Positions 9,270-50,850 of a DNA stretch of 64,000 nt are shown in pieces. Numbering within the stretch: position 1 is the first letter of the stretch; every line of letters begins with the position of its first letter. The stretch is taken from contig NZ_JACSEU010000001.1 of NCBI RefSeq assembly GCF_014334335.1, positions 186,001 through 250,000 of the forward strand. The letters are read 5' to 3'. The notes under the pieces are model-generated. The model was not told the DNA's origin. It saw nothing but the letters and a program-made list of their open reading frames with translations, and made no database searches. The position numbers were made by a program, and so were the translations under genes. The DNA is from Treponema sp. Marseille-Q3903 (lineage in GTDB: Bacteria > Spirochaetota > Spirochaetia > Treponematales > Treponemataceae).

Positions 9270-9276
9270 AAATATG

Positions 9277-9306
9277 ATTATAACAGCTTTTACAATTTTC
9301 AAACAA
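9277..9306 (-). promoter_or_regulatory. Promoter of pfkA, leaderless type
   Basis: Minus strand TTGTTT, 18-nt spacer, then a perfect TATAAT ending 7 nt before the ATG at 9269. The predicted +1 is 9270, one base before the start codon. Confidence 0.6.
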
Positions 9307-9386
9307 CAAAAATCAAATAAAAAAGCAGCAAAAAATAAATCGTTTTTAATGCTAAAAAGTTTTTTTGTTTTTCCGATAATGGAACT

Positions 9387-12290
9387 ATGAAAGCATCTAA
9401 TAAATACAGCATTATTACCGGAGCTGTCCTTTTAGCTCTCGCTGCTCTTTTTTCAATAAGCATGATTCTTTTACCGCTAGACTTCGGCGCAGCAGGACCT
9501 GGACACAATAACATCTTATTTTTGCTTGGCGATATGCTTTATTCCGTTTATGGATTTTCAAGCATTTTGATTCCTGCATTCCTTTTGACAGCAAGCCTTT
9601 CATGTTTCGCTTCTGAATGGACTGCAAGAAAAACGATGCGATTTTTAACAGCTCTTGTACCATTTTTTACTTGTGTAATCACAGAAAATATATGCCGTTC
9701 AATTATCAACCTGGACAATACATCTTTTCCCGAAGTAAAAATTGCCGTAACAATTGTAACTGGCGTTATGCTTGTTGTAATTGAATATTTTGCCGCAGGA
9801 ATTTTGGCTGATAAAATTGCAAAAAAAAACCTAAAACACAAAATTAAATCGCAAGGATATGATGACGATTTTGCCGCCCTCAAACAAAATGAGCAACAAG
9901 AACAGCAAGCACCGCAAATCGCAGAATCTGATACAAAAGAAACCATCGTACAAGAGAATTCTGAAAGTAAATCACAGGTTTTTGATGAAGCGCTTTCAAA
10001 ACTTTCCAAAGTTGAGCAAAAGGAAGAATATTCAACAAATGAAGACAATACAAATTCAACCCCATCTTCAATGATTACACAGGAAGAATTTGTCGCACTT
10101 ACTGAGCAGCCGGAACAGAACGGTTCTGTAGAAGAACTCGAATGGCCTGACCTTCCGCCTCCGCAACAGACGCTTCCTCCTGAATACGATGCAGATTTTG
10201 ATGCTGACGACCCTGCGTTAGAGTTTCCTCCAAAAGAGCCGGAAATTGAGCCAAAAATAGAAGAGGCTGTCGCTCCAGTGTTTGAGGCATACGATGTTGA
10301 AGAACAGAATATTGACGATGACGACTCGTATGACTCGTATATAGAAGATGAAACACTCCCTTTCCCGGATATCGGAATTGAGGAAGACGGCATCGGCACG
10401 GACAGCTTTGATATTGAAAACGATTTTGAATCAGACCTTTCCGATGTGTATTGGAACCCCGCCGAATCAGCCGAAGCAGCCGAGGCAGAACGAGAAATTC
10501 CGCAGGAAACAGAAGACGAAGTGCTAGAAACAGAAAAAGAAATCAAAGCTGTCAAAGTCGAACACGCTTCCGATGTTTTTTCAGAGATGGAAGCGGAAAT
10601 TCGAGCCTCAATGGATAACCAAGATAATAAGCTTTCTCACTATAAAGATAAAGAAGATGCATCACAAATTAAAAATGATGAAACAAAATCAGAGCCTGCC
10701 GAAAAAAAATCCTCCGGAGTTGATTTGTTTGGCAACCCTGTCTCGCAATCTTTTGTGCCTGATTTTGAAGAACGCCTCGTGTACGCAAACAATCTGACAG
10801 CCGATGAGCTCTCGGACTTTTTTAATGCACAGCAGCAGGAATCAGCACCAAAATCAAATACTGCAGTAAAAAAGGGTCCGTATACAATCCCAACAGATTT
10901 GCTGATTGCATATAAAGACGACCAGTATTGGTTGATCGACGAGCAAACAAAACAAGCCGCACTGAATCTTAAACAGACTCTTGGGGAATTCAATATTGAA
11001 GCAGAAATTATAGGTATTAAAAAAGGTCCTGTTGTCACAATGTTTGAAATCTTACCAGCTCCGGGTGTAAAACTGAGCAAGATTGTTGCTCTCCAAGATA
11101 ACATAGCCCTAAGCCTTGCAGCACAATCAGTCAGAATTGTTGCCCCAATCCCCGGAAAGCAGGCAGTTGGAATCGAAGTTCCAAACAGGCACCGCAGCGT
11201 TGTAGGCTTCCGCGAAATCATAGAGATGAATTTGCCTGAATGGTCAAAAATGGCAGTCCCTGTGATTCTCGGTAAAGACATACTTGGAAAAGCACAACTG
11301 ATAGACCTTGCAAAAACGCCTCACATGCTTATTGCAGGAGCAACAGGGTCTGGAAAATCTGTCTGTGTAAACTCTCTGATTCTTTCAATTTTGTACAAAC
11401 GCTCGTTCAACGACGTAAAACTGATACTCGTAGACCCTAAAGTTGTTGAACTTAAACTGTATAACAGCATTCCTCATCTTTTGACTCCTGTAATCACAGA
11501 ACCGAAAAAAGCACTAAAAGCTCTTCAATGGTGTTTGTGCGAAATGGAAAGGCGTTACGCATTGCTCGACAGTATGAGCGTTCGCGACATCGCTAATTAC
11601 AATCAGAAAATAAACGAACAAAAAATCTGCACCGAAAAACTGCCGTATATCGTCGTTATCATCGATGAATTTGCTGACTTAATGGCAACAAGCGGAAAAG
11701 AGCTTGAAAGCATTGTAGCCCGCCTCACGGCAATGTCACGTGCAGTCGGAATTCACCTCGTCCTTGCAACCCAGCGGCCTTCTGTAAACGTAATCACAGG
11801 GCTGATAAAGGCTAATATCCCGACGAGAATTGCGTTCATGGTAGCTTCCAGAACAGACTCAAACATCATCATAGATACCGTTGGCGCAGAAAAACTTCTT
11901 GGGCGTGGCGATATGCTTTACGCCTCTGCCGTCGACCCTGCTCCAATTCGTATTCAAGGAACTTTCGTAACAGATCAGGAAGTTGAAGATGTTGTAAAAG
12001 CTGTAAAAGAATACGGCGAACCTGATTACCTAGATGAAGAACTTTTTGAAGATGACAAAGAAGATGAAGCACGCGATTTATTTGGAGAACCGATAGCTGA
12101 CGATGACCCTCTTTACGACCAGGCTCTTGAAATTGTCGTTCAGGCAGGAAAAGCAAGCGCATCATATATCCAGCGCCGTTTGAAAATCGGTTACAATCGC
12201 GCCGCCCGCCTTGTAGAAGAGATGGAAGAAAGAGGAATTGTTGGTCCTGCAAACGGAAGTAAACCTCGCGAGGTGATTCAAATTCCATGA
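9387..12290 (+). CDS. ftsK: DNA translocase FtsK/SpoIIIE family
   Basis: A 967-residue chromosome translocase. The N-terminal about 150 residues hold four membrane segments. Residues about 150-490 are a Glu/Asp/Ser/Pro-rich low-complexity linker. The motor follows with Walker A GATGSGKS at 651-658, Walker B IVVIIDEFADLM and HLVLATQRPSV. The C-terminal gamma winged helix (ASASYIQRRLKIGYNRAARLVEEMEERGIVGPA) reads KOPS-type sites in known members. It acts at the division septum, pumping DNA and activating XerCD dif recombination. There is no ribosome-binding site. GATAAT ends 6 nt before the ATG, so a leaderless message is likely, although its -35 is poor. The next gene overlaps its stop by 4 bp. 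Confidence 0.95.
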   Translation: MKASNKYSIITGAVLLALAALFSISMILLPLDFGAAGPGHNNILFLLGDMLYSVYGFSSILIPAFLLTASLSCFASEWTARKTMRFLTALVPFFTCVITENICRSIINLDNTSFPEVKIAVTIVTGVMLVVIEYFAAGILADKIAKKNLKHKIKSQGYDDDFAALKQNEQQEQQAPQIAESDTKETIVQENSESKSQVFDEALSKLSKVEQKEEYSTNEDNTNSTPSSMITQEEFVALTEQPEQNGSVEELEWPDLPPPQQTLPPEYDADFDADDPALEFPPKEPEIEPKIEEAVAPVFEAYDVEEQNIDDDDSYDSYIEDETLPFPDIGIEEDGIGTDSFDIENDFESDLSDVYWNPAESAEAAEAEREIPQETEDEVLETEKEIKAVKVEHASDVFSEMEAEIRASMDNQDNKLSHYKDKEDASQIKNDETKSEPAEKKSSGVDLFGNPVSQSFVPDFEERLVYANNLTADELSDFFNAQQQESAPKSNTAVKKGPYTIPTDLLIAYKDDQYWLIDEQTKQAALNLKQTLGEFNIEAEIIGIKKGPVVTMFEILPAPGVKLSKIVALQDNIALSLAAQSVRIVAPIPGKQAVGIEVPNRHRSVVGFREIIEMNLPEWSKMAVPVILGKDILGKAQLIDLAKTPHMLIAGATGSGKSVCVNSLILSILYKRSFNDVKLILVDPKVVELKLYNSIPHLLTPVITEPKKALKALQWCLCEMERRYALLDSMSVRDIANYNQKINEQKICTEKLPYIVVIIDEFADLMATSGKELESIVARLTAMSRAVGIHLVLATQRPSVNVITGLIKANIPTRIAFMVASRTDSNIIIDTVGAEKLLGRGDMLYASAVDPAPIRIQGTFVTDQEVEDVVKAVKEYGEPDYLDEELFEDDKEDEARDLFGEPIADDDPLYDQALEIVVQAGKASASYIQRRLKIGYNRAARLVEEMEERGIVGPANGSKPREVIQIP

Positions 12291-12589
12291 TTTTGTTTAT
12301 CTTAAGTTTAATTGCGGGAATCGCTTTTGTCGCAGCAGGAATTTATTTTCTTTCAGAAAAGTTTTTACAAAGGCTCAACTCCGCATCTCGGGAAAAAACA
12401 GAAGCCTCTCTGCAAAAAAACTCATTTCGGGCAAAAGGTTCCGGTTATGTCGCAATTTCGCTGGGAGCATTTACAATTGTTTGGGGAATACTTTTGATTT
12501 GCTTTCCTGCTCTTTCAAATCTTTTGGCTCTTATTTATATGATTTTTCTCGTAGTTGCGCTGGCAATTTTGATGATTGCTTTTAGATAA
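12287..12589 (+). CDS. Small membrane protein, unknown function
   Basis: A 100-residue protein with hydrophobic segments at about residues 1-22, 52-75 and 76-98, separated by a basic stretch (REKTEASLQKNSFRAK). Its ATG overlaps the ftsK stop codon (ATGA), so it is translationally coupled to ftsK, and birA follows 20 bp later. I recognise no family. Two or three membrane passes are likely. Confidence 0.75.
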   Translation: MILFILSLIAGIAFVAAGIYFLSEKFLQRLNSASREKTEASLQKNSFRAKGSGYVAISLGAFTIVWGILLICFPALSNLLALIYMIFLVVALAILMIAFR

Positions 12590-12609
12590 AAAACAGGTTA
12601 CAAAAAGCT

Positions 12610-13665
12610 ATGACAACAAAAGAAAAAGTCCTCAATTTTCTTCAAAATAATTCAAATCAAAATCAGCTTTCCGGTGAATTTCTTGCAGAAAAATGCAATG
12701 TAAGCCGCGCTGCAATCTGGAAAGCTGTAAATGCGCTTCGCAGCGAGGGTTGCCATATCGAAGGCACTCCAAACGGCGGCTATATTTTATGCGGCGACGC
12801 AGATATTTTTTCACTGGAATTGTTCAATGAAGAATTTAAAATACGTTTTCCGGATTATGCAAAAAATCACGTCGAGTATTTCAAAGAAATAGATTCCACA
12901 AACACGCATGCGAAACGTCTTTTGACTGGCTGTGGAAATCTGCGTGATGCCGGAGGTCGGTTGACAGTTGCCGGCAAAAAATATCACAATGCAGTCATCG
13001 TTGCCGAAAGTCAGACTGCCGGACGAGGCCGGCTTGGCCGTACATTTTATTCACCGTATAAAACTGGAATTTATCTCACCTTAATTTACGCTCCAAAAGG
13101 GGGAATCACGAATCCTGCAAAAACTACGGCATTTACGGCAGTTGCAGTCAATCGCGCTATAAAAAAACTTTACGGAATTGAAACTTCAATCAAGTGGATA
13201 AACGATATTTTTTACAATCGCAAAAAAATTGCCGGCATTTTGACTGAAGGCTTTACAAATTTTGAAACAGGAACTATAGAATCTGCAATCATCGGAATCG
13301 GGGTAAATATTCAGCCCAATGAAATTCTTCCTGATGAAGTTAAAAAAATTGCCGGCGCACTCGAAGAAAATCCGACAAAAGAAAACCATCATGTGTCTCG
13401 CGTACAGCTCGCCGCAGAAATTGCCGGGCAGACAATCAGCGTTCTCCAAGAAAATCCTGCTAAAATCATGGAAGAATACAAAGCTGCGTCATTTTTAATT
13501 GGGCAAAAGATTAAGGTTCATCCGATTATCGGAGATGAAAAATCAGTTTATTCGGCAACTGTAATCGATATTTCAGATGAAGCCGGATTGATTATCGAAA
13601 ATGAAGACGGCGTTCAAAAGACCTTGAGTTCCGGCGAAGTCAGCATCGGGTCGGGAAACATTTGA
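12610..13665 (+). CDS. birA: Bifunctional biotin-[acetyl-CoA-carboxylase] ligase / biotin repressor BirA
   Basis: A 351-residue protein with an N-terminal winged helix (LSGEFLAEKCNVSRAAIWKAVNALRSEGCHIEG, residues about 17-50) followed by the biotin protein ligase domain: VAESQTAGRGRLGRTFYSP for the adenylate loop, IKWINDIFYNRKKIAGILTE and IGIGVNI. The ligase motif reads KWIND where KWPND is usual. The C-terminal SH3-like domain is present (about 290-350). Because the DNA-binding domain is intact, it should repress as holo-dimer. A perfect BirA-type operator lies in front of bioY 2 kb away, and the bioMNY genes end convergently 13 bp from this stop. Confidence 0.95.
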   Translation: MTTKEKVLNFLQNNSNQNQLSGEFLAEKCNVSRAAIWKAVNALRSEGCHIEGTPNGGYILCGDADIFSLELFNEEFKIRFPDYAKNHVEYFKEIDSTNTHAKRLLTGCGNLRDAGGRLTVAGKKYHNAVIVAESQTAGRGRLGRTFYSPYKTGIYLTLIYAPKGGITNPAKTTAFTAVAVNRAIKKLYGIETSIKWINDIFYNRKKIAGILTEGFTNFETGTIESAIIGIGVNIQPNEILPDEVKKIAGALEENPTKENHHVSRVQLAAEIAGQTISVLQENPAKIMEEYKAASFLIGQKIKVHPIIGDEKSVYSATVIDISDEAGLIIENEDGVQKTLSSGEVSIGSGNI

Positions 13666-13677
13666 TTTAAGGCTTTA

Positions 13678-14364
13678 TCAGCTCCTTGCCGAAAAAGCTT
13701 TTGCAGCGTTGTAAGCTTGTTTCATTCCAATCGAAAATAAAACCGGAATCAAAATCAAATACATTTTTACAGATTTTTTGCCGCAGCGGACTTTCCATGC
13801 ACGTTCTGCTTGATTCCAAATTTTTGTAACAATCGGAATAAAAGTAACGAACATCGACAGAAGAGCCGTGATTGTATTCCTCTGCCTAAGATGCATGATT
13901 TTGCGGACTGCTCTTTCAATTGTTTCAATTCCCTCACGAAGCTCTAAAGAAGTTGAAGTGCGAAACACAATCGAAGCGCACTGCATTGCACAAAAAAGTT
14001 TGAGCAGCATGATTCCCGTAGGCAGTGATTCTTTTGCGAGTAACTTTAAATCGCTGATATAAGTAAAATTATATTTTGGAATCTGTTCTCCAAAAAGTTT
14101 TGTAAAAGTTACCAGGATGACTTTTGCGATCAAGAGAATTGCGCCATAGTAGATTACAGGTTTCAAATCTGTCAATTGTTCTTTTGTTGTAAAATGCAAA
14201 CAGTATGCAAGGATTATTTGAAATAATACAAAAGCTGCTGCAAAATACCATGGCATTATAAAGAATAAGATATTTAGAATTGGAATTACAATAATTTTTA
14301 TCCAGGCTGGGCACCTGTGAACTAGAGAATTTCCATTTTTATAACTGAATGCAGAATATTTCAT
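13678..14364 (-). CDS. bioN: Energy-coupling factor transporter transmembrane protein BioN (EcfT family)
   Basis: A 228-residue membrane protein with about five hydrophobic segments. The EcfT coupling region is visible as ELREGIETIERAVRKIMHLRQRNTITALLSMFVTFIPI, followed by NQAERAWKVRCGKK, which corresponds to the Ala-Arg-Gly type motifs that dock on the ATPase. It overlaps bioM by 4 bp and ends convergently with birA. Together with BioM and BioY it forms a dedicated biotin importer. Confidence 0.88.
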   Translation of the reverse strand: MKYSAFSYKNGNSLVHRCPAWIKIIVIPILNILFFIMPWYFAAAFVLFQIILAYCLHFTTKEQLTDLKPVIYYGAILLIAKVILVTFTKLFGEQIPKYNFTYISDLKLLAKESLPTGIMLLKLFCAMQCASIVFRTSTSLELREGIETIERAVRKIMHLRQRNTITALLSMFVTFIPIVTKIWNQAERAWKVRCGKKSVKMYLILIPVLFSIGMKQAYNAAKAFSARS

Positions 14365-15745: not shown

Positions 15746-15754
15746 AATGCGATG

Positions 15755-15783
15755 AGTATAGCCGATTGAAAAAAGATTGTAAA
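15755..15783 (-). promoter_or_regulatory. Promoter of bioYMN, overlapped by the BirA operator
   Basis: Minus strand TTTACA, 17-nt spacer, TATACT. The -35 hexamer (15778-15783) is contained in the proximal half of the BirA inverted repeat. Predicted +1 is 15748, three bases before the bioY ATG. Confidence 0.75.
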
Positions 15784-15811
15784 CCACAAATTTATCTCAA
15801 GGTTTACAATC
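15775..15811. promoter_or_regulatory. BirA operator (biotin-responsive)
   Basis: GATTGTAAACC (15775-15785) and GGTTTACAATC (15801-15811) form a perfect 11+11 bp inverted repeat with a 15-nt spacer. This matches the known BirA site form TTGTAAACC-N14/16-GGTTTACAA described for many bacteria. It sits on the -35 box of bioY, and the birA gene in this window keeps its DNA-binding domain. Confidence 0.93.
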
Positions 15812-15850
15812 TAAAACAGAGTAAATACAATGTAAAAAACTCGAGAAATT

Positions 15851-17683: not shown

Positions 17684-17692
17684 AGTGATATT

Positions 17693-17721
17693 ATTTTAGT
17701 GATATGATGAAACTTGTACAA
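17693..17721 (-). promoter_or_regulatory. Promoter of aspS, leaderless type
   Basis: Minus strand TTGTAC, 17-nt spacer, TAAAAT. The predicted +1 at 17686 leaves a 3-nt leader before the aspS ATG at 17683, too short for a T-box or ribosome-binding site. Confidence 0.6.
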
Positions 17722-20119: not shown

Positions 20120-20148
20120 ATTTTAATGAATTTATACAAATATGTCAC
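20120..20148 (-). promoter_or_regulatory. Promoter of the ychJ-like gene, leaderless type
   Basis: Minus strand GTGACA, 17-nt spacer, TAAAAT. The predicted +1 is 20113, two bases before the ATG at 20111. Confidence 0.6.
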
Positions 20149-20286
20149 TTAGCGAAAGTTTTGCAGGGGCGAGAATACACGACCTTTTCAAATTAAAGCG
20201 CTGCTACGGATTTCTAAAACTGAAGTAAAGTTTCAAACAATTATCACGGCTATAACGCTTTTAATCATTTCTCCGATAATAAATCT

Positions 20287-23862: not shown

Positions 23863-25209
23863 TCACACAAGTGCGTACTTCTGCCAACGTTTACTTTTCC
23901 ACCTTAACAGCATTACAATCCCACGTGTAGTTTCGTCAGTTCCAATTCCAATCCAAAATCCCGCAAGACCTAATCCCATCTTTAACCCAAGTATGTAACT
24001 TCCAAAAACCATGATTCCCCACATTGAAATAATTCCATACAAAACAGGAAATTTCACATCACCGGCACCTTTTAAAGCACCGACATAGATAAGATTCAGA
24101 GAGCGTCCGAATTCTATGTAAACGGAAAGAATCAAAAGCGTAGTTACCATGCTATAAACTTCTTCGATATCAGTAAACATTCTTATGACAGGGTTCTTTG
24201 CAATGTTGACAACAACAATCATAACCATTGAGCAGACTGTTGCAATAAGCTGATATTTGAAAACTTTTTTGTAAGCAACATCACTTTGGCGAGCTCCAAC
24301 GTAATATCCTGTTTTAATCTGCGTAGCCTGACCAACTGCTGAAGCAACTGAAAAAACAAATCGCACGATTGTCATTGTGTAAACTTCGGCAGAAATCGCA
24401 TTTGTTCCAAGAGTTGAAACCATAGCCATAATGACAATTTGGCTCACATTGTATGAAAGGCTCTCTCCTGCGGTCGGAACTCCTACCGAGAGAACGAGTT
24501 TGTAACTCTGCAACGGAACTTTTGTAATTCCATGTATATGAAGCTCAACATCTTTTCGGCGGCGAATAAAGAAATTAAAAAGTATGCATGAAGCAATCAT
24601 CGAGATGCCGCTTGCCCATGCAACGCCCTTTACCCCGAATACGGGAAGCCCGAACCAGCCGTAAAGAGAAAGCGCATTTCCCACTACGTTGATGAAATTC
24701 GCAACAAGAGAGACAATCATCGCTTCATTTGTATAACCGTAACTTCGTAGAATTGCACCTTGCAATAAACTGAATGCATTGAAAAAGCAGCAGATTCCGC
24801 CATAAATTATAAAATACTGCCAAGCGTATTCTCTGACAGAATCTTCAAGTTCATAGCAATTTAATAGAGGACGAGTTCCAAATATTACAGCAAAAGTCAA
24901 AACAAGAGAAATTATAGAAACCATTATTGCACTCGCTTGCGCAATGTGGTTTAATTCTTCTTTTGATTTTCCCGCCCCAATGTATTGTGCTAAAACTATT
25001 GAACAACCAGTCCCGATTACCGCAAATATGAGATTCAAAAAGAACACATATTGACTCACAAGCCCGACCGCTGCAACTGCGGCGTTGCTGTAAGAGCTGA
25101 GCATAAAAGTGTCAGCAGAAGAAACAAGGATACGAAAAAACAGTTCCATGGCGATTGGGAATGTTAGCTTTAACATTGACAATGCACCACGATTTTTTAT
25201 TTGAACCAT
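23863..25209 (-). CDS. MATE-family multidrug/cation efflux transporter
   Basis: A 448-residue membrane protein with twelve hydrophobic segments and the MATE two-bundle organisation: LTFPIAMELFFRILVSSADTFMLS in the first helix, VGLVSQYVFFLNLIFAVIGTGCSIVLAQYIGAGKSKE, and the second-half repeat LVLSVGVPTAGESLSYNVSQIVIMAMVSTLG. It would export cationic drugs or metabolites by Na+ or H+ antiport. Its ATG is preceded by an AT-rich -10-like element and no ribosome-binding site. It ends convergently with the GNAT gene. Confidence 0.92.
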   Translation of the reverse strand: MVQIKNRGALSMLKLTFPIAMELFFRILVSSADTFMLSSYSNAAVAAVGLVSQYVFFLNLIFAVIGTGCSIVLAQYIGAGKSKEELNHIAQASAIMVSIISLVLTFAVIFGTRPLLNCYELEDSVREYAWQYFIIYGGICCFFNAFSLLQGAILRSYGYTNEAMIVSLVANFINVVGNALSLYGWFGLPVFGVKGVAWASGISMIASCILFNFFIRRRKDVELHIHGITKVPLQSYKLVLSVGVPTAGESLSYNVSQIVIMAMVSTLGTNAISAEVYTMTIVRFVFSVASAVGQATQIKTGYYVGARQSDVAYKKVFKYQLIATVCSMVMIVVVNIAKNPVIRMFTDIEEVYSMVTTLLILSVYIEFGRSLNLIYVGALKGAGDVKFPVLYGIISMWGIMVFGSYILGLKMGLGLAGFWIGIGTDETTRGIVMLLRWKSKRWQKYALV

Positions 25210-25239
25210 AGCCTGATAATATAATGCTTTTAATGTGTT

Positions 25240-25562: not shown

Positions 25563-25592
25563 TTGACATTAAAATGTATATTATGGTATAAT
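25563..25592 (+). promoter_or_regulatory. Consensus promoter of the M23 peptidase gene, leaderless type
   Basis: A perfect TTGACA, an 18-nt spacer and a perfect TATAAT. The predicted +1 at 25599 leaves 2 nt before the ATG at 25601. This is the best example in the window of a consensus promoter with no room for a ribosome-binding site. Confidence 0.8.
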
Positions 25593-26655: not shown

Positions 26656-27066
26656 ATGGCTTTACGAATTGACGATATTTCCATCAACACGCTAATCGGA
26701 AACGGTTCTGCAATTTCCGGAGATATAAAAGTAAACGGATTTGTCCGTATAGACGGAGATATTGACGGAAATCTTGAAACAGACGGAAATGTAATTGTTG
26801 GCGAAAAAGCACGGATACGCGGAAACGTAAAGGCAAAATCGATAATTGTAGGTGGAATCATCATCGGGGATTTAAACGCTGTTGAAAGTGTAAAACTCCT
26901 ATCTGAATCGGCTGTAATCGGGGATATTCTTTCTCATAAAGTTCAAATTGACGACAAGTCCATATTTCATGGGCACTGCATTTCTATTAAAAATGAAGAT
27001 TCATACAACAAAACCTCTGAAGAATATTTACAGTCAAAAGCGATAAAAGCAAAGGTCTCTTTTTAA
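26656..27066 (+). CDS. Bactofilin (DUF583) cytoskeletal protein
   Basis: A 136-residue protein made of the right-handed beta-helix typical of bactofilins. Repeating hydrophobic/Gly strands are seen in ISGDIKVNGFVRIDGDIDGNLETDGNVIVGEKARIRGNVKAK and IIGDLNAVESVKLLSESAVIGDI. It polymerises without nucleotide in known members and positions cell-wall enzymes. It lies 29 bp after the M23 peptidase gene. The -10-like element TATAAA/TAAAAT upstream of the ATG suggests an additional leaderless promoter. Confidence 0.92.
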   Translation: MALRIDDISINTLIGNGSAISGDIKVNGFVRIDGDIDGNLETDGNVIVGEKARIRGNVKAKSIIVGGIIIGDLNAVESVKLLSESAVIGDILSHKVQIDDKSIFHGHCISIKNEDSYNKTSEEYLQSKAIKAKVSF

Positions 27067-27653
27067 TGGCAGAAATCGATCCTTTAAGTACAAATTATTA
27101 TTACACAGGCGTTCAAAATGCTGCAAATGAAAAGATAAAAAACAACAAAGCAAAGGAAGAAGTTTCTAAAACCCGTCGTTCAAAATTTTCCGATTTATTA
27201 AAGGCAGAAAACGAAGCAAGCTCAGATTTTAAAGCAAACTCGCTTCCCTCGGAAATCGCCGAGTTATCTTTAGACGATGCTGTTGTCTATTTAAAAGATG
27301 CCGTAGACAATGCGGGAAATGCGCTTGCAGAAAACGTTACTCGAGAAAATATCGACAATTTTAAAAATAAAGTTCGTCAATTCATCACTTTTGTTGTAGA
27401 AAACAATTTTGAAGTAAATGCAAAGAGAAAAATGAGAAACGGAAAAGTGCTGATGGAACCTTCGCGAACTAATTTTTTTTCTAACTACGCTCTTCCGCCT
27501 CATCAATCAACTCCAAAAGTAAAAATCGAAATATTAAATGAAAAATTAGACGAGTTGACGAGAGAAACTCTTTCCACACAAGCAAACAATATGAAAATCC
27601 TTGCGCAGATAGATGAAATAAAAGGGCTTATTGTAGACTTGATAAGTTCATAA
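27066..27653 (+). CDS. YaaR-like (DUF327) protein
   Basis: A 195-residue hydrophilic, helical protein. NFKNKVRQFITFVVENNFEVNAKRKMRNGK and the C-terminal ILAQIDEIKGLIVDLI are the DUF327/YaaR pattern. The gene overlaps the bactofilin stop codon by one base (TAATG) and the PSP1 gene follows at once, which mirrors the yaaR-yaaT neighbourhood of Firmicutes and supports the call. The function of YaaR is not established. Confidence 0.72.
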   Translation: MAEIDPLSTNYYYTGVQNAANEKIKNNKAKEEVSKTRRSKFSDLLKAENEASSDFKANSLPSEIAELSLDDAVVYLKDAVDNAGNALAENVTRENIDNFKNKVRQFITFVVENNFEVNAKRKMRNGKVLMEPSRTNFFSNYALPPHQSTPKVKIEILNEKLDELTRETLSTQANNMKILAQIDEIKGLIVDLISS

Positions 27654-27668
27654 AACGTGAGGTATAAT
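27639..27668 (+). promoter_or_regulatory. Promoter of the PSP1-domain gene, leaderless type
   Basis: TTGATA, 18-nt spacer, perfect TATAAT. The -35 lies in the 3' end of the yaaR-like gene. Predicted +1 is 27675, three bases before the ATG at 27678. Confidence 0.65.
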
Positions 27669-27677
27669 AAAAAACGT

Positions 27678-28662: not shown

Positions 28663-28691
28663 TAGACTACTTTCATAAAATTCAGTAAAAT
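28663..28691 (+). promoter_or_regulatory. Promoter of proS, leaderless type
   Basis: TAGACT, 17-nt spacer, TAAAAT. The predicted +1 at 28698 is two bases before the proS ATG at 28700. Confidence 0.55.
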
Positions 28692-30511: not shown

Positions 30512-30531
30512 TTTTACTTATGGGATTTCAG

Positions 30532-32457: not shown

Positions 32458-32486
32458 ATTATCGGATTTTTTTTTGCGATAGTTAA
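32458..32486 (-). promoter_or_regulatory. Promoter of the GerMN gene, leaderless type
   Basis: Minus strand TTAACT, 17-nt spacer, GATAAT. The predicted +1 coincides with the A of the ATG at 32451. Confidence 0.5.
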
Positions 32487-34038: not shown

Positions 34039-34896
34039 CTACATCTCCAATTTTTCTGCTTCGGCTAGCATTTTGCATTTATGAAAATCTTCAGTTTCAC
34101 GAGATTTGAAAGATTTCATACGCATCATCATGTTATCCCAATCAACCTGATGAGCATCAAAATCAGGACCGTCAACACAGACAAACTTTGTTTTCCCGCC
34201 GATTGCAACACGACAGCCGCCGCACATGCCAGTTCCGTCAATCATTATTGTGTTTAATGAAACTGTTGTAGGAACGTTGAATTCTTTTGTTGTAAGGGCA
34301 CAAAACTTCATCATTATCGGAGGACCTATCGCTATAACTTCGGCAGGAGGACACTGACTTTCGCAAAGCTCCTTAAGAGGAAGCGTAGAAACTCCTTTCC
34401 GACCGGCAGAACCATCATCTGTCATTATGATAACTTCGTCTGCAACTTTTTTCATTTCATCAACAAATATCAGAAGCTCTTTATTTCGAGCCGCAATAAT
34501 CATTATAACTTTGTTGCCAATAGCTTTGTGAGCCTGAACAATTGGATAGCACGGAGCAACTCCAAATCCGCCTCCAACAACAACAACAGGTCCGTTATCG
34601 TATTTTTTAATTTCTGAAGGATTTCCTAAAGGTCCTAGAACTGCCGGTAATGACTGTCCGGCTTCCATAAGTGAGAGTTTATAAGTTGTAGCTCCCACTG
34701 CCTGAAAAACAAGGGCAATCCACCCTTCCTCCGAATTTGCATCCGCAATTGTAAGAGGAACACGCTCCCCAAAGTCAATATCAACCTGAACAATCACAAA
34801 CTGCCCAGCCTTGCGATTGTGAGCGATTTCCGGAGCCTCAACTTTCATATAGAAAACACCGACAGAAAGCTGCTTTTTTTCAATAATTTTAAACAT
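34039..34896 (-). CDS. nfnA: NADH-dependent reduced ferredoxin:NADP+ oxidoreductase subunit A
   Basis: A 285-residue ferredoxin-reductase-like subunit. The FAD-binding barrel contains VPLTIADANSEEGWIALVFQAVGATTYKL, the NAD fold begins VVVVGGGFGVAPCYPIVQA, and the [2Fe-2S] site near the C-terminus shows DGTGMCGGCRV and FVCVDGPDFDAHQVDW. That C-terminal block, including the Asp, is characteristic of NfnA/SudB and distinguishes it from PyrK. It forms a heterodimer with NfnB, balancing NADH, NADPH and reduced ferredoxin in fermenting anaerobes. AGAGG ribosome-binding site with a normal leader. Confidence 0.88.
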   Translation of the reverse strand: MFKIIEKKQLSVGVFYMKVEAPEIAHNRKAGQFVIVQVDIDFGERVPLTIADANSEEGWIALVFQAVGATTYKLSLMEAGQSLPAVLGPLGNPSEIKKYDNGPVVVVGGGFGVAPCYPIVQAHKAIGNKVIMIIAARNKELLIFVDEMKKVADEVIIMTDDGSAGRKGVSTLPLKELCESQCPPAEVIAIGPPIMMKFCALTTKEFNVPTTVSLNTIMIDGTGMCGGCRVAIGGKTKFVCVDGPDFDAHQVDWDNMMMRMKSFKSRETEDFHKCKMLAEAEKLEM

Positions 34897-41391: not shown

Positions 41392-42276
41392 TTAGGCATT
41401 TAAATTAAATTCAAGAATATTAGAGATATCTTCTGTTTTTGAAGCTCTTGTATATATTTCGTTCAGCAAATTTATACAGTTATATTCCATCAGTTTATAA
41501 ATGCCGGAAACTAAAAAGTTTTTTATGCGCTGGTCAAGCCCGTTGTGCCCGGCGGAATCTGTAAAAGCAAAGACGAAAATTTTTTCAGAGCCAGTCTGGC
41601 GTTCCGTCAACAAAACCGCATCAGCGCGGAAAATATATCCCTGCACATTGATATGTATGTCACGTATTTTTTCATAAAGTTTAACATTTAATTTGCCCGC
41701 TCTATCACAAGCTGTAAAATGAGAAAGGCTGACATCTTGAATAGTGCCGGTAATTTGATTTCCGTTGTAGTTTAATGAATACGTACAGGAACTCGGACAG
41801 AGAGCACGGATATTCTTTCGTCTTCCCTGTGCCTGATTAGCGTATAAAATCTTTTCAATCAAAATAAAGTTGTTTTTTTTCTGATAGTCAAGCTGAATAC
41901 AACCGCAGCAAATGCCCAAATCAAAAAGGTATTTTTTTTCGATTCTAGCGCGTTCTTCTTTGTTTTGACGCTTTGTGTACAAAACCCCGATGCTTAATTT
42001 ATTTCCATAACTTGCGGTAAGATTTTTTATATATGAATACCAGTCTATTTCGGAACTGTTGTAATCGATATTGAAAAATATGATAACATCTTTGAACAAA
42101 GAAATTATTATGTCGATTTTTTTATCTAGACTTACTCGTTTGTCATTTTCAATAAAATAACATTCGTAACCAAGCACAAAAAAATCTTCAAGATATAACT
42201 CCGGCATTAAAGACGTGTCCGGCGTAATAAAAAAAGTTTTTCGTCCATTTACAATTTCGTTGACAGGTAGCCTCAC
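41392..42276 (-). CDS. PilZ-like protein with divergent receiver-like N-terminus
   Basis: A 294-residue protein. Residues about 150-250 resemble a PilZ domain: RRKNIRALCPSSCTYSLNY supplies the RxxxR arginines and IQDVSLSHFTA occupies the D-x-S-x-x-G position, although the final Gly is Phe here. The N-terminal 140 residues (FFITPDTSLMPELYLEDFFVLGY, KIDIIISLFKDVIIFFNIDYNSSEIDW) look like a receiver fold that has lost its phosphorylation pocket. The start is GTG at 42276 with an AGGA ribosome-binding site. A c-di-GMP effector role is plausible, but the altered motif leaves binding unproven. Confidence 0.6.
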   Translation of the reverse strand: MRLPVNEIVNGRKTFFITPDTSLMPELYLEDFFVLGYECYFIENDKRVSLDKKIDIIISLFKDVIIFFNIDYNSSEIDWYSYIKNLTASYGNKLSIGVLYTKRQNKEERARIEKKYLFDLGICCGCIQLDYQKKNNFILIEKILYANQAQGRRKNIRALCPSSCTYSLNYNGNQITGTIQDVSLSHFTACDRAGKLNVKLYEKIRDIHINVQGYIFRADAVLLTERQTGSEKIFVFAFTDSAGHNGLDQRIKNFLVSGIYKLMEYNCINLLNEIYTRASKTEDISNILEFNLNA

Positions 42277-42463
42277 TGTTTTATCCTCATTAATTTGCCT
42301 AAGCGAAATTTTTTTTGATTAATTGAAATACCTTTTTTAATATCCTGATTATAGCATTATATTTTTAAAAATCAACATAATAGCCAAAATAATAGTAAAA
42401 AAAAATTCACAATTTAGATTGAAAAGTAAAGGAGTCAAAGCCTTTTGACATCAAGACTTTTGC

Positions 42464-42492
42464 TTTAAATATTGAGCGAATTCAGTTATAAT
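42464..42492 (+). promoter_or_regulatory. Promoter of ptsI-der-merR-rsm22, leaderless type
   Basis: TTTAAA, 17-nt spacer, perfect TATAAT. Predicted +1 at 42499, two bases before the ptsI ATG at 42501. The 42277-42460 interval upstream is AT-rich and holds no gene that I can see. Confidence 0.6.
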
Positions 42493-42500
42493 CTTACCTC

Positions 42501-44216: not shown

Positions 44217-44237
44217 AACAAAGAACCAGGAAAGTTT

Positions 44238-45773: not shown

Positions 45774-46093
45774 CTTATTCAATCGGGGATGTTGAGGATT
45801 TGACAGGTGTAAAAGCTCATATTTTACGTTATTGGGAAGATGTCATTCCAGGCTTTTCACCACAAAAAGATATGAGCGGACGGCGGGTTTATTCGCAACA
45901 CGAAATTGAACTTATTTTTCGTCTCAAGTATCTGATTAATGAAAAAAAATTTACTGCAGAAGGAGCCGGTCAGCAGATTCTTGAAGAGTCTCAGGTTGTG
46001 CAAAATAACATAGATTTGATTCAACAGATAAGAGAATGCCGCTCTGAACTGAGCAATGTATATTTGAAAATACACAACGCGAGAAAATTATGA
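45770..46093 (+). CDS. MerR-family regulator, short form
   Basis: A 107-residue protein with a MerR winged helix: YSIGDVEDLTGVKAHILRYWEDVIPGFSPQKDMSGRRVYSQHEIELIFRLKYLINEKKFTAEGAGQQILEE. Only a short helical tail follows, with no ligand domain or metal-binding Cys. I take the ATG at 45770, which overlaps the der stop (ATGA). A longer in-frame start would lie inside der. It overlaps the next gene likewise. The target is unknown. Other small MerR proteins next to housekeeping genes control chromosome- or metabolism-related operons. Confidence 0.85.
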   Translation: MTYSIGDVEDLTGVKAHILRYWEDVIPGFSPQKDMSGRRVYSQHEIELIFRLKYLINEKKFTAEGAGQQILEESQVVQNNIDLIQQIRECRSELSNVYLKIHNARKL

Positions 46094-47403
46094 CAGAAAA
46101 ATTTTATCAGAATTTTATAGACCACAAAAAAACAAAGACAAACAAAGGGAATAAAACAAAAAAAACAATTAAACACGACAAAAATACCTTTAAAAATTCC
46201 GTTGAAAAAAAAATTGCCGACATGTCTGAAATAAAACATATTTCACTTTTTTCTGCAAAAAATATCACAAAAGATGCTGTAAATATTTTAAATAATTTTG
46301 ATGAAATTATTCAGGGAGTAAACCCTCTAAATTCACGCCAACTCCAACAGCTGCCGGACAACATCAGAAATCTTTCGCATCTTCTTACAGACAACAGAAG
46401 TGAACGCCGTCTCGGTTATATGAACGATAATGTTCAACTGAGTGCCTACATTCGCTATTACACATGGTGGAATCTTGTCCGCATCACAAGGCTGTTTGCA
46501 AATTTACCGGAGACTTGTTTCCCTTCAAAAGATGAAATTTGCCTAGATATCGGAAGCGGTCCTCTCACTGTTATAACTGCATTGTGGCTTTCAAGGCCCG
46601 AATTGCGAAAACTCCGCCTTACTTGGTATTGCCTCGACATTTCTGCAAATTCAATGGCGCTCGGAGAAGATATTTATCTTTCCATCGTTGCTAAAAGTGA
46701 AGAGGAGCCATGGCGTATCATTCGCGTAAAAGGTTCTTTCGGAACCGAGATAAGGCAAAAAGCTGATTTTATCACATCTGCAAATATGTTCAATGAACTC
46801 AACCAATCAAGCGAAATGCCGCCCGAGTATCAAACAAAAAAGTATTTTACGCAGCTAAAAGCTTACTCGACACCACATGCAAAATTTTTGTTTATAGAGC
46901 CGGGCATCCCAAAATCCGCACGAACATTGAGTTTGCTCCGCGACCGCTTTATAAGCAATGGAAAATTTATTTTAGCGCCATGCCCACATCAAGGCGAATG
47001 TCCAATGAATGGATTTAAGGCATATACAGGAAGCAAAAACAAATGGTGCAATTTTGCTTTCAGCACAGAAGACGCTCCTCCGAGACTTTTGAAGCTAAGT
47101 GAAAATGCAAAATTGCCGAAAGAGCGCGCAACTTTGAGTTTTATTTCTATTGTAGATAGCGAAGTTTCCACTCAGAATCAAAACCGCAATAAAGATAAGA
47201 GTGAAATAAAATGCCGTGTTACATCTGACACTTTCAAGCTGCCGGGAAACTTTACCGGACATTACGCTTGCACGGAGCGTGGACTTGCCCTTTTAAAAAG
47301 TCATGCAAAAATCAACTCCGGAGATGCATTCTGCGTTAAAATAAAAACACCGGATTCTCTCCCAAAAGATGAAAAATCCGGTGCCGTTATAATTGAGTTA
47401 TAA
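46090..47403 (+). CDS. Rsm22-like small-ribosomal-subunit methyltransferase
   Basis: A 437-residue protein. A Lys-rich N-terminus is followed by an Rsm22-type SAM domain: EICLDIGSGPLTVITALWLSRPELRKL (motif I), LTWYCLDISANSMALGEDI, FLFIEPGIPKSARTLSLLRDRF, then the Fe-S/zinc ligands LAPCPHQGECPMN and WCNFAF, and the C-terminal RATLSFISI and FKLPGNFTGHYACTERGLALL. Rsm22 proteins bind an Fe-S cluster and act on the 30S subunit. The exact modification in bacteria is not established. It overlaps merR as ATGA. A terminator for the opposite gene lies within its last 60 bases. Confidence 0.88.
   Translation: MTEKFYQNFIDHKKTKTNKGNKTKKTIKHDKNTFKNSVEKKIADMSEIKHISLFSAKNITKDAVNILNNFDEIIQGVNPLNSRQLQQLPDNIRNLSHLLTDNRSERRLGYMNDNVQLSAYIRYYTWWNLVRITRLFANLPETCFPSKDEICLDIGSGPLTVITALWLSRPELRKLRLTWYCLDISANSMALGEDIYLSIVAKSEEEPWRIIRVKGSFGTEIRQKADFITSANMFNELNQSSEMPPEYQTKKYFTQLKAYSTPHAKFLFIEPGIPKSARTLSLLRDRFISNGKFILAPCPHQGECPMNGFKAYTGSKNKWCNFAFSTEDAPPRLLKLSENAKLPKERATLSFISIVDSEVSTQNQNRNKDKSEIKCRVTSDTFKLPGNFTGHYACTERGLALLKSHAKINSGDAFCVKIKTPDSLPKDEKSGAVIIEL
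47339..47383 (-). terminator. Intrinsic terminator of the DUF-like membrane gene, inside rsm22
   Basis: On the minus strand CACCGGATT, an 18-nt loop and AATCCGGTG form a 9-bp stem followed at once by TTTTTATTTTAA. It follows the stop of the membrane-protein gene ending at 47406 by about 23 bases and lies wholly within the coding 3' end of the convergent Rsm22-like gene. Confidence 0.75.
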
Positions 47404-47405
47404 AG

Positions 47406-47810
47406 TTATCTCTTTACTGTGCTGCATAGAGCGATAATCCAACCTGCGCAGGCAAGGTAGAATCCCCACGTCGCATTTTTAAGCAAAAGTTTTCCGCCCA
47501 TCCTGTAGATTCCCCCGTTTGTCATAAAACCGACAACAAGGATAATTCCGCCGGCAATACTGCAAATCAGGAACAGAATTTTCAATGCGCCGAGATTCGG
47601 AATAAAGCTCGCAACAACTCCGGCAACTGCACCTGCAAAAATCAAAATTGCGCCAATTGTAACAAATCCAAATCTGTCAAAATTGATAAATTTGAACCCG
47701 TTTGCAGAACTTCCAAAAAGTCCTTTAATCATTGGACAGCAAAATCCAACCACAACAAGAGCCATACCGATAAGGTATAAGAATCCAAATACGTCTCTTT
47801 TCTTTGCCAT
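47406..47810 (-). CDS. Small four-helix membrane protein, unknown function
   Basis: A 134-residue protein with four hydrophobic segments (about residues 10-30, 50-72, 78-97 and 112-130) and no recognised motif beyond a short basic N-terminus (MAKKRD) and C-terminus (VKR). AAGGAG ribosome-binding site. It ends 2 bp from the convergent Rsm22-like gene and has its own terminator. Confidence 0.75.
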   Translation of the reverse strand: MAKKRDVFGFLYLIGMALVVVGFCCPMIKGLFGSSANGFKFINFDRFGFVTIGAILIFAGAVAGVVASFIPNLGALKILFLICSIAGGIILVVGFMTNGGIYRMGGKLLLKNATWGFYLACAGWIIALCSTVKR

Positions 47811-47907
47811 AATAATAAACTCCTTATTATATATAACTGTCTATTCATTTTATAGATTTTAAAATAATCAGTCAAAAGCCTTATCAAGATTGCAGCAAGA
47901 ATTTGTC

Positions 47908-47936
47908 TTGCATTGGCATTCTTTTATGTCTATACT
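47908..47936 (+). promoter_or_regulatory. Promoter of the WecA-like gene, leaderless type
   Basis: TTGCAT, 17-nt spacer, TATACT. Predicted +1 at 47943, three bases before the ATG at 47946. An alternative ATG at 47913 lies between the two hexamers, which argues against it as the true start. Confidence 0.7.
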
Positions 47937-47945
47937 TGGAATAAC

Positions 47946-49013
47946 ATGAAGATGTTTCTACTTGTCATACTGTCTGCAACCATCTCTTTAATATCTATGC
48001 CTTTGATTATAAAATTTTGCAAGCAGTTCAATTTATATGATTATTCGAACGCACGTAAAATTCATTCTGGAAATATACCTAGACTTGGCGGTATCGGTGT
48101 TTTTTTAGCATACGCTATCACCTCTCTTTTATACATTTTTTTTACAAACGACAATAATTTTTCACGCGAGATTTATTTTGTGATCGCAGGTTCAATCATA
48201 TTTATCTTTGCTATTATCGATGATATTTTTAATCTCCATGCAATCATTAAGCTCCTCGTTCAATTAGGCGCTGTTTTTCTCGTAACATCTCATGGATTCC
48301 GTTTTACTCAAATATTAGGATGGCTTCTACCAGCTCCCGTAAGTTATATTTTGACTTTCGGATGGATTTTAGGAGTGATAAACGCTTACAATCTGATTGA
48401 CGGGCTTGACGGGCTTTGCGGCTCGCTTTCATTCACTGCAATCACGACTTTAGGAATAATTTATTTACTATCAGGAAACAATGAAGCGATATTGTGCTTT
48501 GTGCTTGCTGCCGCAATTTTTGGATTTCTGTGCTACAACTGGCCGCCTGCAAAACTTTTTATGGGCGACAACGGCAGTCAATTTCTCGGGTTTATGATTG
48601 CAACGTTCCCTCTTTACACTTCAAGCGACGTATTCGAATACAATAAATTTCTTATGATGCTTGTCATAACAGCATTTCCCGTATTTGACACAATCGCCGC
48701 AATCTGGAGACGTTTGCGCGACCACAGACCGATAATGTCAGCAGACCGCTTCCATCTTCACCATAAACTTTTAAATCTCGGTTACTCTAAAACAAAAGCA
48801 TTATATTTAATTGTCGTGATGCAGATTATTTTGTGCATCATAGTGATTATTTCTTACTTTTTGGGTGCAAAAAAAGGTTCTTCGGTTTTACTGGAATCAC
48901 TTGCATTTGTGACATTGTTCTTCAGCATAATTCACTTTGCAAATAAAGCTGCCGTCAAAAAAATGGAAGACAAGGAATCTGCTGACGACAAATTTTCATC
49001 AGAAAAAAAATAG
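47946..49013 (+). CDS. WecA/TagO-like undecaprenyl-phosphate sugar-phosphate transferase
   Basis: A 355-residue membrane enzyme of the MraY/WecA family with about eleven hydrophobic segments. Family motifs: IHSGNIPRLGG, IIDDIFNLHA (Mg-binding Asp pair), GVINAYNLIDGLDGLCG, AKLFMGDNGSQFLG and RDHRPIMSADRFHLHHKLLNLGYS. The HLHH motif and lack of the MraY-specific peptide loop favour the WecA/TagO/WbpL side, which loads a HexNAc-1-phosphate on undecaprenyl phosphate for surface polysaccharide. I choose the ATG at 47946 because it directly follows a good promoter. No glycosyltransferase cluster surrounds it. Confidence 0.9.
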   Translation: MKMFLLVILSATISLISMPLIIKFCKQFNLYDYSNARKIHSGNIPRLGGIGVFLAYAITSLLYIFFTNDNNFSREIYFVIAGSIIFIFAIIDDIFNLHAIIKLLVQLGAVFLVTSHGFRFTQILGWLLPAPVSYILTFGWILGVINAYNLIDGLDGLCGSLSFTAITTLGIIYLLSGNNEAILCFVLAAAIFGFLCYNWPPAKLFMGDNGSQFLGFMIATFPLYTSSDVFEYNKFLMMLVITAFPVFDTIAAIWRRLRDHRPIMSADRFHLHHKLLNLGYSKTKALYLIVVMQIILCIIVIISYFLGAKKGSSVLLESLAFVTLFFSIIHFANKAAVKKMEDKESADDKFSSEKK

Positions 49014-49112
49014 TCTAAAACTACCTCTGATTAAACCCGAAAAACTTATTTTATAATGATTTTCCAAGTTTCAAACGATAGGCTTTCAAAAACTGTAGAC
49101 CTGTTTTTTTTC

Positions 49113-49140
49113 TTGATTTTCTTGGTTTCTATATTAAAAT
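49113..49140 (+). promoter_or_regulatory. Promoter of the kinase-regulator pair, leaderless type
   Basis: TTGATT, 16-nt spacer, TAAAAT ending 6 nt before the ATG at 49147. The predicted +1 coincides with the start codon. Confidence 0.45.
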
Positions 49141-49146
49141 CATTAC

Positions 49147-50850
49147 ATGCACCAAAAGCGTTTTAGAGACGAGTTAAGACAAAGTTTATTGATTCACTCT
49201 CTTGTTCCCGTCATAATCGCAACCTTTGTGTTTCTTATATGCTCCTACATAATTTGGCTTTATGCTCTTACTAATTCAATGGACAGAGACTTGGAAAACT
49301 ATGAGATTTTCCTTGATGATTCATTTTCAAAATATTCAGATTTTCTTTATAAAATCCCAGAACTTGACTTAGATCTATTGGAAAATGACATAGAAGCAAA
49401 AGCTGAATTCAACAGACGTCTTTATTTATTTCTAAATTCACAAAAAATAAAAGGAAACTTTTTTTTAACAGATAAAAATTTCAATCTAATACTTTGCTCA
49501 AAAGCTAATGCAAGCGCTAAAAAAAAACAATGCTCAGAGGTTCAGAAAGTAATTAAAAGTGGAGGCCTTTCAGAAGATTTTAAACATTTCCTATGGTATG
49601 AAAAAGATGGAGAATTTCCTTCGCTTTTTATATACCGTAAATTGCAAGGTTCTGGTGGCACGGCGGGTTTTATTCTCCAACCAAAGAATATCGTTGAAAC
49701 AGAAGAAATAAACGCGCAACATTTTGCAATAAGCGATAAATTTGGACGAATTTTTCAAACAAACACTCCGATGTTTTTTGGAGCAAATGGAAAAATAAAC
49801 CCCAGAATTTCATCAATAAAAGGTTTTTTCCTCCAAGGAAACCTTTATTATTATATAAAAAAAATATATTTAAAAAACTTTAGTTTTGAGCTTTATATCG
49901 CAAAAGGCGTACAAGAAATGTTCTCAATGTTTAAAATTCTTCTTGCAGTCTCTGGAGGTTTTATCATTCTCCAAGCGCTCACGATATGGAAAAGTTCCAA
50001 CATTATTGCAAAGAAAAAAACTAAACTCTTAGAGGAGATGGTTGAATCTTTTAAAAAAGTGTCTGACGGCTATCTTCAGGAACGTCTCTATATTCAAAGC
50101 CCTGAAGAATTTTCAATAATAAGTGAATCATACAATAAAATGCTAGAAAACGTGCAAAATCTCATAAAGAAAAACGAAGAGCAGATGCAGCAGGCTATAA
50201 ACTTAAATCTAAGACTTCTTGAGATTCGGTTTAACAAGCACTTCCTTTTCAATACCCTTGAAACAGTCAGATTTATGACAAGAATAAGTCCAGAAATTGC
50301 TGAAGAAATTGTCGTCAGGCTCTCAAACTTGCTAAGATACAGTATAAAACATGGCGATGAGACAGTAGAACTCAATGAAGATATTGGCTATGTAAAAGAC
50401 TATTTTCAGATTCTTTCATACAGATTTAGAAGTCGAATGATTTTTTCAATAGATGTAGACGATGCTGTTGGTGAATGTCTTGTTCCCAAACTTATATTTC
50501 AACCTCTTGTTGAAAACAGCATAAAATATGGACTTGATGAAAAGCAAAGCGTAAATATTGAAATTTCAGTTAAAAGAAAAAATGAGGACATTGTTATAAC
50601 AATATCAGACAATGGGCCTGGAATAGAAACTGAAAAACTAAGGCAGATTATGGACGAAATCTATGAAAACACAAAATGTACACACATAGGTGTTTATAGC
50701 GTACACCGAAGACTCGTATTGATGTACGGAAAACCTTATGGAATTTCAATAACAAGCACAAGGAATGAAGGGACCAAAATTGAGCTTCTGTTGCCGTTCA
50801 TAAAAAAATCGGAGAAAAAAAATGATGACTGTACTTATTGCCGAGGATGA
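49147..50850 (+). CDS. Sensor histidine kinase, LytS/YesM family
   Basis: A 567-residue membrane sensor: transmembrane segment at about 17-42, an extracytoplasmic domain of about 210 residues, a second segment at about 257-280, a HAMP-like linker, then the HisKA_7TM/YesM-type phosphoacceptor LEIRFNKHFLFNTLETVRFM with His365, and the HATPase_c domain (N box LVENSIKYGLDE, G box ISDNGPGI, G2 RNEGTKIELLLPF). This architecture is typical of kinases that sense extracellular carbohydrate or peptide signals. The response-regulator gene starts inside its 3' end. Confidence 0.92.
   Translation: MHQKRFRDELRQSLLIHSLVPVIIATFVFLICSYIIWLYALTNSMDRDLENYEIFLDDSFSKYSDFLYKIPELDLDLLENDIEAKAEFNRRLYLFLNSQKIKGNFFLTDKNFNLILCSKANASAKKKQCSEVQKVIKSGGLSEDFKHFLWYEKDGEFPSLFIYRKLQGSGGTAGFILQPKNIVETEEINAQHFAISDKFGRIFQTNTPMFFGANGKINPRISSIKGFFLQGNLYYYIKKIYLKNFSFELYIAKGVQEMFSMFKILLAVSGGFIILQALTIWKSSNIIAKKKTKLLEEMVESFKKVSDGYLQERLYIQSPEEFSIISESYNKMLENVQNLIKKNEEQMQQAINLNLRLLEIRFNKHFLFNTLETVRFMTRISPEIAEEIVVRLSNLLRYSIKHGDETVELNEDIGYVKDYFQILSYRFRSRMIFSIDVDDAVGECLVPKLIFQPLVENSIKYGLDEKQSVNIEISVKRKNEDIVITISDNGPGIETEKLRQIMDEIYENTKCTHIGVYSVHRRLVLMYGKPYGISITSTRNEGTKIELLLPFIKKSEKKNDDCTYCRG

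Follow-up and report, generated by a model that had tools for sequence, protein, structure and literature searches.

Putative leaderless or near-leaderless gene starts at sigma-70-type promoters in Treponema sp. Marseille-Q3903

In Treponema sp. Marseille-Q3903, a sigma-70-type promoter lies directly before the ATG of many genes that open a transcript, and such genes very probably have leaderless or near-leaderless starts. Judging from promoter position, roughly a quarter of the transcript-opening genes appear to be read from the start codon itself. As leaderless genes are known in bacteria, Leptospira included, this Treponema would add a further case. If correct, this would mean that several treponemal housekeeping genes (aspS, proS, ptsI and pfkA) are translated without a Shine-Dalgarno (SD) site. 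This would affect start-codon annotation and promoter prediction and, going by the StartLink report, the expected response to antibiotics that tell leadered from leaderless mRNAs (PMC9581028).

Promoter hexamers at gene starts in the window

The window, namely, the whole 64,000-nt stretch of DNA considered here (C1:186001-250000 of the 2.51 Mb genome), includes 13 genes for which the first-pass annotation had described a -10 hexamer ending 6-9 nt before the ATG, with no SD sequence. Indeed, the hexamer lies at this distance (termed the gap) in 13 of 13 cases, and none of the 13 carries GGAG, GAGG, AGGA or AAGG at positions -18 to -5. A -35 sequence matching in at least four of six positions at a spacer of 16-18 nt was found in nine of the 13, with such a match being expected by chance at 16% per site.

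On the forward strand, the M23 peptidase gene (start 25601) is preceded by TTGACA-18-TATAAT (25563..25592, gap 8), exactly as the annotation had written, PSP1 (start 27678) by TTGATA-18-TATAAT (27639..27668, gap 9), proS (start 28700) by TAGACT-17-TAAAAT (28663..28691, gap 8), ptsI (start 42501) by TTTAAA-17-TATAAT (42464..42492, gap 8), the WecA-like gene (start 47946) by TTGCAT-17-TATACT (47908..47936, gap 9, the -35 matching in 3/6 positions) and the histidine kinase (HK) gene (start 49147) by TTGATT-16-TAAAAT (49113..49140, gap 6). On the reverse strand, the corresponding sequences are TTTACA-17-TATACT for bioY (15755..15783, gap 9, start 15745), TGTACA-16-TAAAAT, or alternatively TTGTAC-17, for aspS (17693..17720, gap 9, start 17683), GTGACA-17-TAAAAT for the ychJ-like gene (20120..20148, gap 8, start 20111) and TTAACT-17-GATAAT for GerMN (32458..32486, gap 6, start 32451). 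Three further genes combine a -10 hexamer with a weak -35, these being pfkA (TATAAT at 9277..9282, reverse strand, gap 7, start 9269), ftsK (GATAAT at 9375..9380, forward strand, gap 6, start 9387) and GH18 (GATAAT at 20275..20280, forward strand, gap 6, start 20287). The MatE gene (start 25209), absent from the earlier list, is a candidate by virtue of a single match, a -10-like TATATT at 25218..25223 on the reverse strand (gap 8).

Ten of the 13 gene products were scanned with Pfam and all fit the names given (bioY, ychJ-like, GH18, WecA-like and HK among them), while solved homologues bear out the names of proS, aspS, ptsI and pfkA. Of the genes that had been cited as SD-led, the names livJ (a periplasmic binding protein), gntR and rubrerythrin fit as well; for nfnA (34039-34896), the match is to a DHODB Fe-S domain only, which is compatible with the name. 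The description of all 13 as first genes of operons stands less well for two of them, given that PSP1 and proS lie 24 and 98 nt behind a same-strand gene, respectively, and so are not clearly first. The PSP1 promoter (27639-27677), being close behind a same-strand gene, is possibly internal. The genes pfkA and ftsK are divergent (9270-9386), each with its -10 directly at the start codon and with 92 nt between the two hexamers. A scan of the window against Rfam at gathering thresholds returned no match.

Because starts were called by a home-made procedure that considers coding score and start codon only, favouring ATG and ignoring upstream sequence, the possibility that the start codons are wrong, with the real starts lying downstream behind normal SD sites on leadered transcripts, has to be weighed. 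The simplicity of the caller speaks for this possibility, as does the need to correct pfkA, bioY, wecA and HK. In proS, aspS, ptsI and pfkA, by contrast, the match to solved structures starts at the ATG or no more than a few residues from it, and the ATG and the residues following it are conserved, by eye, in most orthologue loci. Misplaced starts are thus a most improbable explanation, and promoters placed at the true ATG are preferred.

To compare start types, genes were classed as first (the neighbour being divergent or, if on the same strand, more than 100 nt upstream), near (26-100 nt behind a gene on the same strand) or internal (25 nt or less). In the window, where only pfkA (9269), bioY (15745), wecA (47946) and HK (49147) had their starts corrected by hand, 12 of 25 first genes, MatE at 25209 included, were leaderless-like, nine had a SD site only and four had neither. 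The corresponding numbers were two, two and one for the five near genes and two, 12 and nine for the 23 internal genes. Since at least three of the four first genes with neither signal (livJ, 41392-42276 and 53896-55554) have a SD-like stretch before an alternative start, these counts understate SD use. In the case of livJ (3860-5032), the longest ATG frame probably overstates the gene by 36 nt, with a second ATG at 4996 following AAGGAGG.

First and internal genes across the genome

The same comparison was extended to 40 stretches which, with the window, cover about a third of the genome, 850 kb being considered in all. After removal of genes with a coding score of 15 or less, with no upstream neighbour or too near the end of a stretch, 631 of 704 genes were kept (269 first, 149 near and 213 internal). 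A strong -10 was defined as a hexamer with at least five of six matches, including A2 and T6, at a gap of 5-9, and 100 dinucleotide shuffles served as the null. Such a hexamer precedes 55 of the 269 first genes, as compared to 18.8 +/- 4.2 in the shuffles (maximum 30 in 100 shuffles), and 47 of 244 first genes when the window is excluded. Near genes gave 10/149 (8.8 in shuffles), and internal genes showed no excess at this gap (8/213 versus 8.4). The in silico comparison that the first-pass annotation had proposed, namely, that of -10 position in first and internal genes, thus yields sharply different distributions.

A mixture model seeded with -10-like and SD-like hexamers, and in which location was flat at the outset, ended at TATAAT, with 53% of the location mass at a gap of 5-10, together with AGGAG at SD distance. 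The expected number of leaderless genes in this model is 74.4 of 269 first genes (about 28%), 18.9 of 149 near genes and 12.5 of 213 internal genes. At the same time, pairing with the anti-SD at -5 kcal/mol or better was seen for 107 of the 269 first genes (40%). As such, the split proposed earlier, with first genes leaderless and internal genes SD-led, stands as a tendency; as a strict rule, it is ruled out by the many SD-led first genes (107/269, and at least 9/25 in the window).

The -35 region provides a separate line of evidence, having played no part in selecting the hexamers. Of 60 first-gene hexamers, 16 have a TTG at a spacer of exactly 17 nt, as compared to a mean of 1.5 at other spacers; spacers of 16, 17 and 18 nt account for 1, 16 and 5 of the 60, respectively, i.e., the distance at which sigma-70 promoters carry this element. 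All 16 lie outside the window, no first gene inside which had an exact TTG at spacer 17 in this count. In loci of named Treponema, TTG at spacer 17 precedes 41 of 132 hexamers (1.7 at other spacers), a number in which the few gene families around proS recur. Among the few hexamers before internal genes, some are promoter-like as well, with TTG at 16-18 nt in four of nine.

When both boxes were scored together, 98 of the 269 first genes reached at least 9 bits. The gap was 2-4 in two of these, 12-19 in seven and 20 or more in 59 (SD in 38), while only one of the 30 at gap 5-11 has a SD, a scarcity that is partly built in because the hexamer then fills most of the SD zone. In E. coli, the two-box score reached the threshold in 0/80 first genes, rendering that genome uninformative as a control for this measure.

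These results bear on the possibility that the hexamers act as AT-rich, unstructured or S1-binding stretches, aiding initiation on leadered mRNAs transcribed from promoters further upstream. The genome is AT-rich (GC 38.5%) and -10-like hexamers do occur elsewhere in first-gene upstream regions, at 3.6 per position over the 269 genes. Against this stand the convergence of the motif on TATAAT from a flat location, the TTG precisely 17 nt upstream in 16/60 cases, the lack of any excess before the genome's own internal genes and the retention, by eye, of the hexamer in orthologues in which the flanks differ. Such an origin is accordingly considered very unlikely, and chance arising from AT-richness is ruled out by the shuffles, the internal genes and the -35 test.

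According to the preferred explanation, RNA polymerase bearing the main sigma factor would recognize TTGNNN and, mostly 17 nt later, TATAAT or TAAAAT directly before the ATG, and would start transcription at the A of the ATG or 0-3 nt before it. The resulting mRNA would have no room for a SD sequence, such that initiation would presumably be of the 5'-terminal-AUG (leaderless) or near-leaderless type. Internal genes and leadered first genes would employ normal SD sites; the anti-SD tail CACCTCC is present in 3/3 16S copies and, being intact, would allow SD initiation to serve the remaining genes.

Within this explanation, it is conceivable, although somewhat less than an even prospect, that the transcripts are near-leaderless, starting 1-4 nt upstream and hence bearing a very short non-SD leader. 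Transcription typically starts 6-7 nt after the -10, which would leave 1-3 nt, gaps of 8-9 are common, and 10 of the best 30 ptsI loci have an A at position -1. On the other hand, transcription starts tend to follow a pyrimidine-purine rule, and position -1 is occupied by a T or C in 13/13 listed window genes, in 72/74 proS loci with a -10 match and in 21/21 aspS loci, as would suit a start at the A of the ATG. Genome-wide, the contrast is weaker, with a pyrimidine at -1 in 38/52 leaderless-like and 65/108 SD-led first genes. A preference for ATG among the leaderless-like genes was also looked for across the genome and not seen (76/81 versus 279/293 in SD-led genes, with a caller that favours ATG).

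Conservation and change of start type in orthologues

Records of Treponema, T. bryantii strains among them, match the proS protein at up to 89% identity, and the organism is accordingly taken to be related to T. bryantii. Of the 184 matching named loci, the best 80 were kept and 78 used. Among these, 72 have a -10 (at least 4/6) and no SD, while the remaining six have a SD. With called genes and a strict rule (at least 5/6), 62/76 are leaderless-like. In a tree of 78 rows (the window and 77 loci, one short locus being omitted), the SD rows fall in one clade of eight that also holds two leaderless rows, amounting to three changes on the tree.

The best 30 loci from 39 genomes of the genus, the own genome included, were considered for each of aspS, ptsI and pfkA under the looser (-10 matching at least 4/6) and the strict rule. 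In aspS, the looser rule gave 21 leaderless-like, eight SD and one neither, and the strict rule 20, eight and two. In ptsI, 29 were leaderless-like under the looser rule, L278, with its wrong start, among them, and one had both signals; under the strict rule, 23 of 29 were leaderless-like, with one both and five neither. For pfkA, where one incomplete locus was dropped, a -10 at gap 4-10 was present in 27/29 loci under the looser rule, 24 of these having no SD 4-mer and being leaderless-like, three having both signals and the other two loci neither.

GerMN was leaderless-like in 48/57 orthologues by -10 alone; when starts were aligned and both boxes scored, the gap was 11 or less in 12/26, 12-19 in two and further in four, with eight being weak and none having a SD. 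Orthologues of PSP1 were mixed (n=30: both 10, SD 9, neither 7, leaderless 4). Some -10 calls are due to chance, as seen with the bactofilin gene at 26656 and the gene at 30520, which match here and in only 0/27 and 1/53 orthologues, respectively. Genes with a SD in this genome retain it in their orthologues, as seen in 23/24 cases for the SD-led first gene at 34039-34896.

When the two-box promoter was located in 216 orthologues of six genes, 199 could be scored, these being related loci rather than independent events. The gap was 11 or less in 158 (SD in six), 12-19 in four and 20 or more in 37 (SD in 23). At a gap of 20 or more, a SD is present in 13/16 M23, 7/7 aspS and 3/4 proS copies, such that leader and SD occur jointly in these three genes, and in 0/10 for ptsI, pfkA and GerMN together. 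These ten are among the 14 far calls without a SD, in eight of which a close -10 is visible by eye, having been outscored by a distant site.

In M23, start codon and promoter distance are associated. Of 27 rows, the window included, nine combine ATG with a leaderless-like start, 16 have TTG or GTG (one misread by one codon), mostly with a SD-like stretch, and in the remaining two the start is ATG and the -10 lies about 14 nt off. Among the named rows, ATG is found in 8/8 at a gap of 11 or less and TTG or GTG in 16/16 at 20 or more. This association follows relatedness and may reflect one evolutionary change. In copies with TTG or GTG (e.g., L053, L095, L110 and L119), the promoter is mostly 35-41 nt off, while close relatives have ATG and a promoter 8-11 nt away.

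In SD-type aspS copies, the promoter lies further upstream, with several copies keeping, by eye, a similar promoter to which a leader and a short hairpin have been added. In L244, L245, L246, L248, L256 and L257, a short GC-rich hairpin is visible just before the SD, and the upstream regions of L246 and L248 contain more palindromes, resembling repeated elements. Operon position was considered as a clean cause of the SD-type aspS and proS copies and rejected, as it runs counter to neighbour distances: five of the eight SD-type aspS copies are separated from their neighbour by more than 100 nt, and 25/72 leaderless-like proS loci have a same-strand gene no more than 100 nt away. The 6/6 SD-type proS loci are likewise this close to such a gene.

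The differences in mode within aspS, M23 and proS offer a natural series in which the cost or benefit of a leader could be examined. It may be that promoter-to-ATG distance, SD and start codon evolve together as one switchable unit, and that leaderless initiation is a standing, gene-specific second mode kept by selection for housekeeping genes in Treponemataceae, a lineage with a 1.1 Mb genome included. This reading is put forward only tentatively, confidence in it having been lowered because the link to the start codon comes almost wholly from M23, which provides 16 of the 17 non-ATG starts over the six genes.

Known leaderless genes and distribution among spirochaetes

In Deinococcus and Mycobacterium, many transcripts have no 5' leader, with SD sites being employed in the same genomes as well. 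Leaderless genes of both are named in the parts of two reports drawn upon here (PMC5243855; PMC5397173). In a spirochete, a systematic split between leaderless first genes and SD-led internal genes had been thought worth describing; leaderless genes as such are, however, already known in spirochetes. In the cited portion of a dRNA-seq study of Leptospira interrogans, about 440 transcripts start less than 10 nt from the start codon (PMC5243855), and leaderless genes were predicted in 6/18 spirochaete genomes, at 1.8-6.9% of genes, in what is given of the survey by Zheng 2011 (PMC3160421). Leptospira thus has many transcript starts near the start codon, as predicted for this Treponema, on the basis of RNA there and of sequence here. 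According to the cited portion of the Leptospira study, no promoter motifs besides RpoN were identified there (PMC5243855), whereas TTG-17-TATAAT is explicit here.

With the TA-led genes of Zheng 2011, the present set shares a TANNNT about 12 nt upstream of the start and control by dinucleotide shuffles (PMC3160421). That work looked for a TANNNT-type motif peaking some 10-12 nt upstream, and the peak here is at a gap of 5-10; excess over dinucleotide shuffles and, as a tendency, location at first genes were likewise found. As argued there, only proximal genes can be leaderless, distal genes needing a SD (PMC3160421). The expected share of leaderless genes here, about 17% of 631 as compared to 1.8-6.9%, was obtained by a different method and includes false positives. 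In the passages cited, high-GC groups have a bare TAnnnT, whereas this low-GC Treponema has a fuller TATAAT (PMC3160421). A literature search for leaderless genes in Treponema returned no relevant paper by title; in the portions of published work considered, mapped 5' ends of T. denticola are leadered (14 and 124 nt), as is that of T. pallidum tprL, which has a RBS.

The distribution of strong -10 hexamers at gap 5-9 was addressed by applying the same pipeline to first genes of other genomes, with the expectation taken from distant bins. The two named Treponema sets gave 46/170 (12.5 expected) and 79/286 (20.6 expected), counts that repeat a few gene families because all named loci surround proS. 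Elevated counts were also seen in G088 of the own genus (6/35 versus 1.6), in three genomes of genus g2 (15/93 versus 7.6), in G041, which belongs to the same family and measures 1.14 Mb (7/75 versus 0.95), and in G104 of another family, f7 (14/116 versus 3.0). By contrast, strong hexamers were found in 0/80 first genes of E. coli (2.6 expected) and in 5/68 from two pooled genomes of family f15 (15.2 expected). There was little or no signal in G006 (0/22, 0.6 expected), G023 (3/29, 2.0), G004 (1/25, 1.1), G083 (1/32, 0.4) and G040 (0/35, 0.7).

In the mixture model, the leaderless share of first and internal genes was 20% and 0% in g2, 26% and 0% in G041 and 27% and 6% in G104. In named set A, 16% were leaderless even in the internal class; internal -10 matches over both named sets are mainly PSP1 (14) and proS (5). 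In E. coli and family f15, the seeds drifted away to different motifs (2% and 5% of first genes, respectively), no -10-like motif emerged in G040 and G083, and G004 gave TAAAAg (6.9/25 first, 1.0/40 internal) with only 26% of the location mass at gap 5-10.

First genes differed from internal ones in SD pairing (Fisher P <0.05) in the genome's own sample, as well as in G104, G040 and the two named sets; the same test gave no difference in g2, G041 and G088. In G040 (L231-L235, family f21), pairing at -5 kcal/mol or better was seen in 4/35 first and 10/21 internal genes, and this genome, which has no TATAAT near its starts, is possibly leaderless with another promoter type. The proS gene is SD-led in the three g2 loci and, outside the family, in most of the loci, meaning that a gene does not keep a single start mode throughout the phylum. 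In G104 (L179-L183, L200-L209), with a GC content of 58%, the same split is seen, with TAtAcT at gap 5-10.
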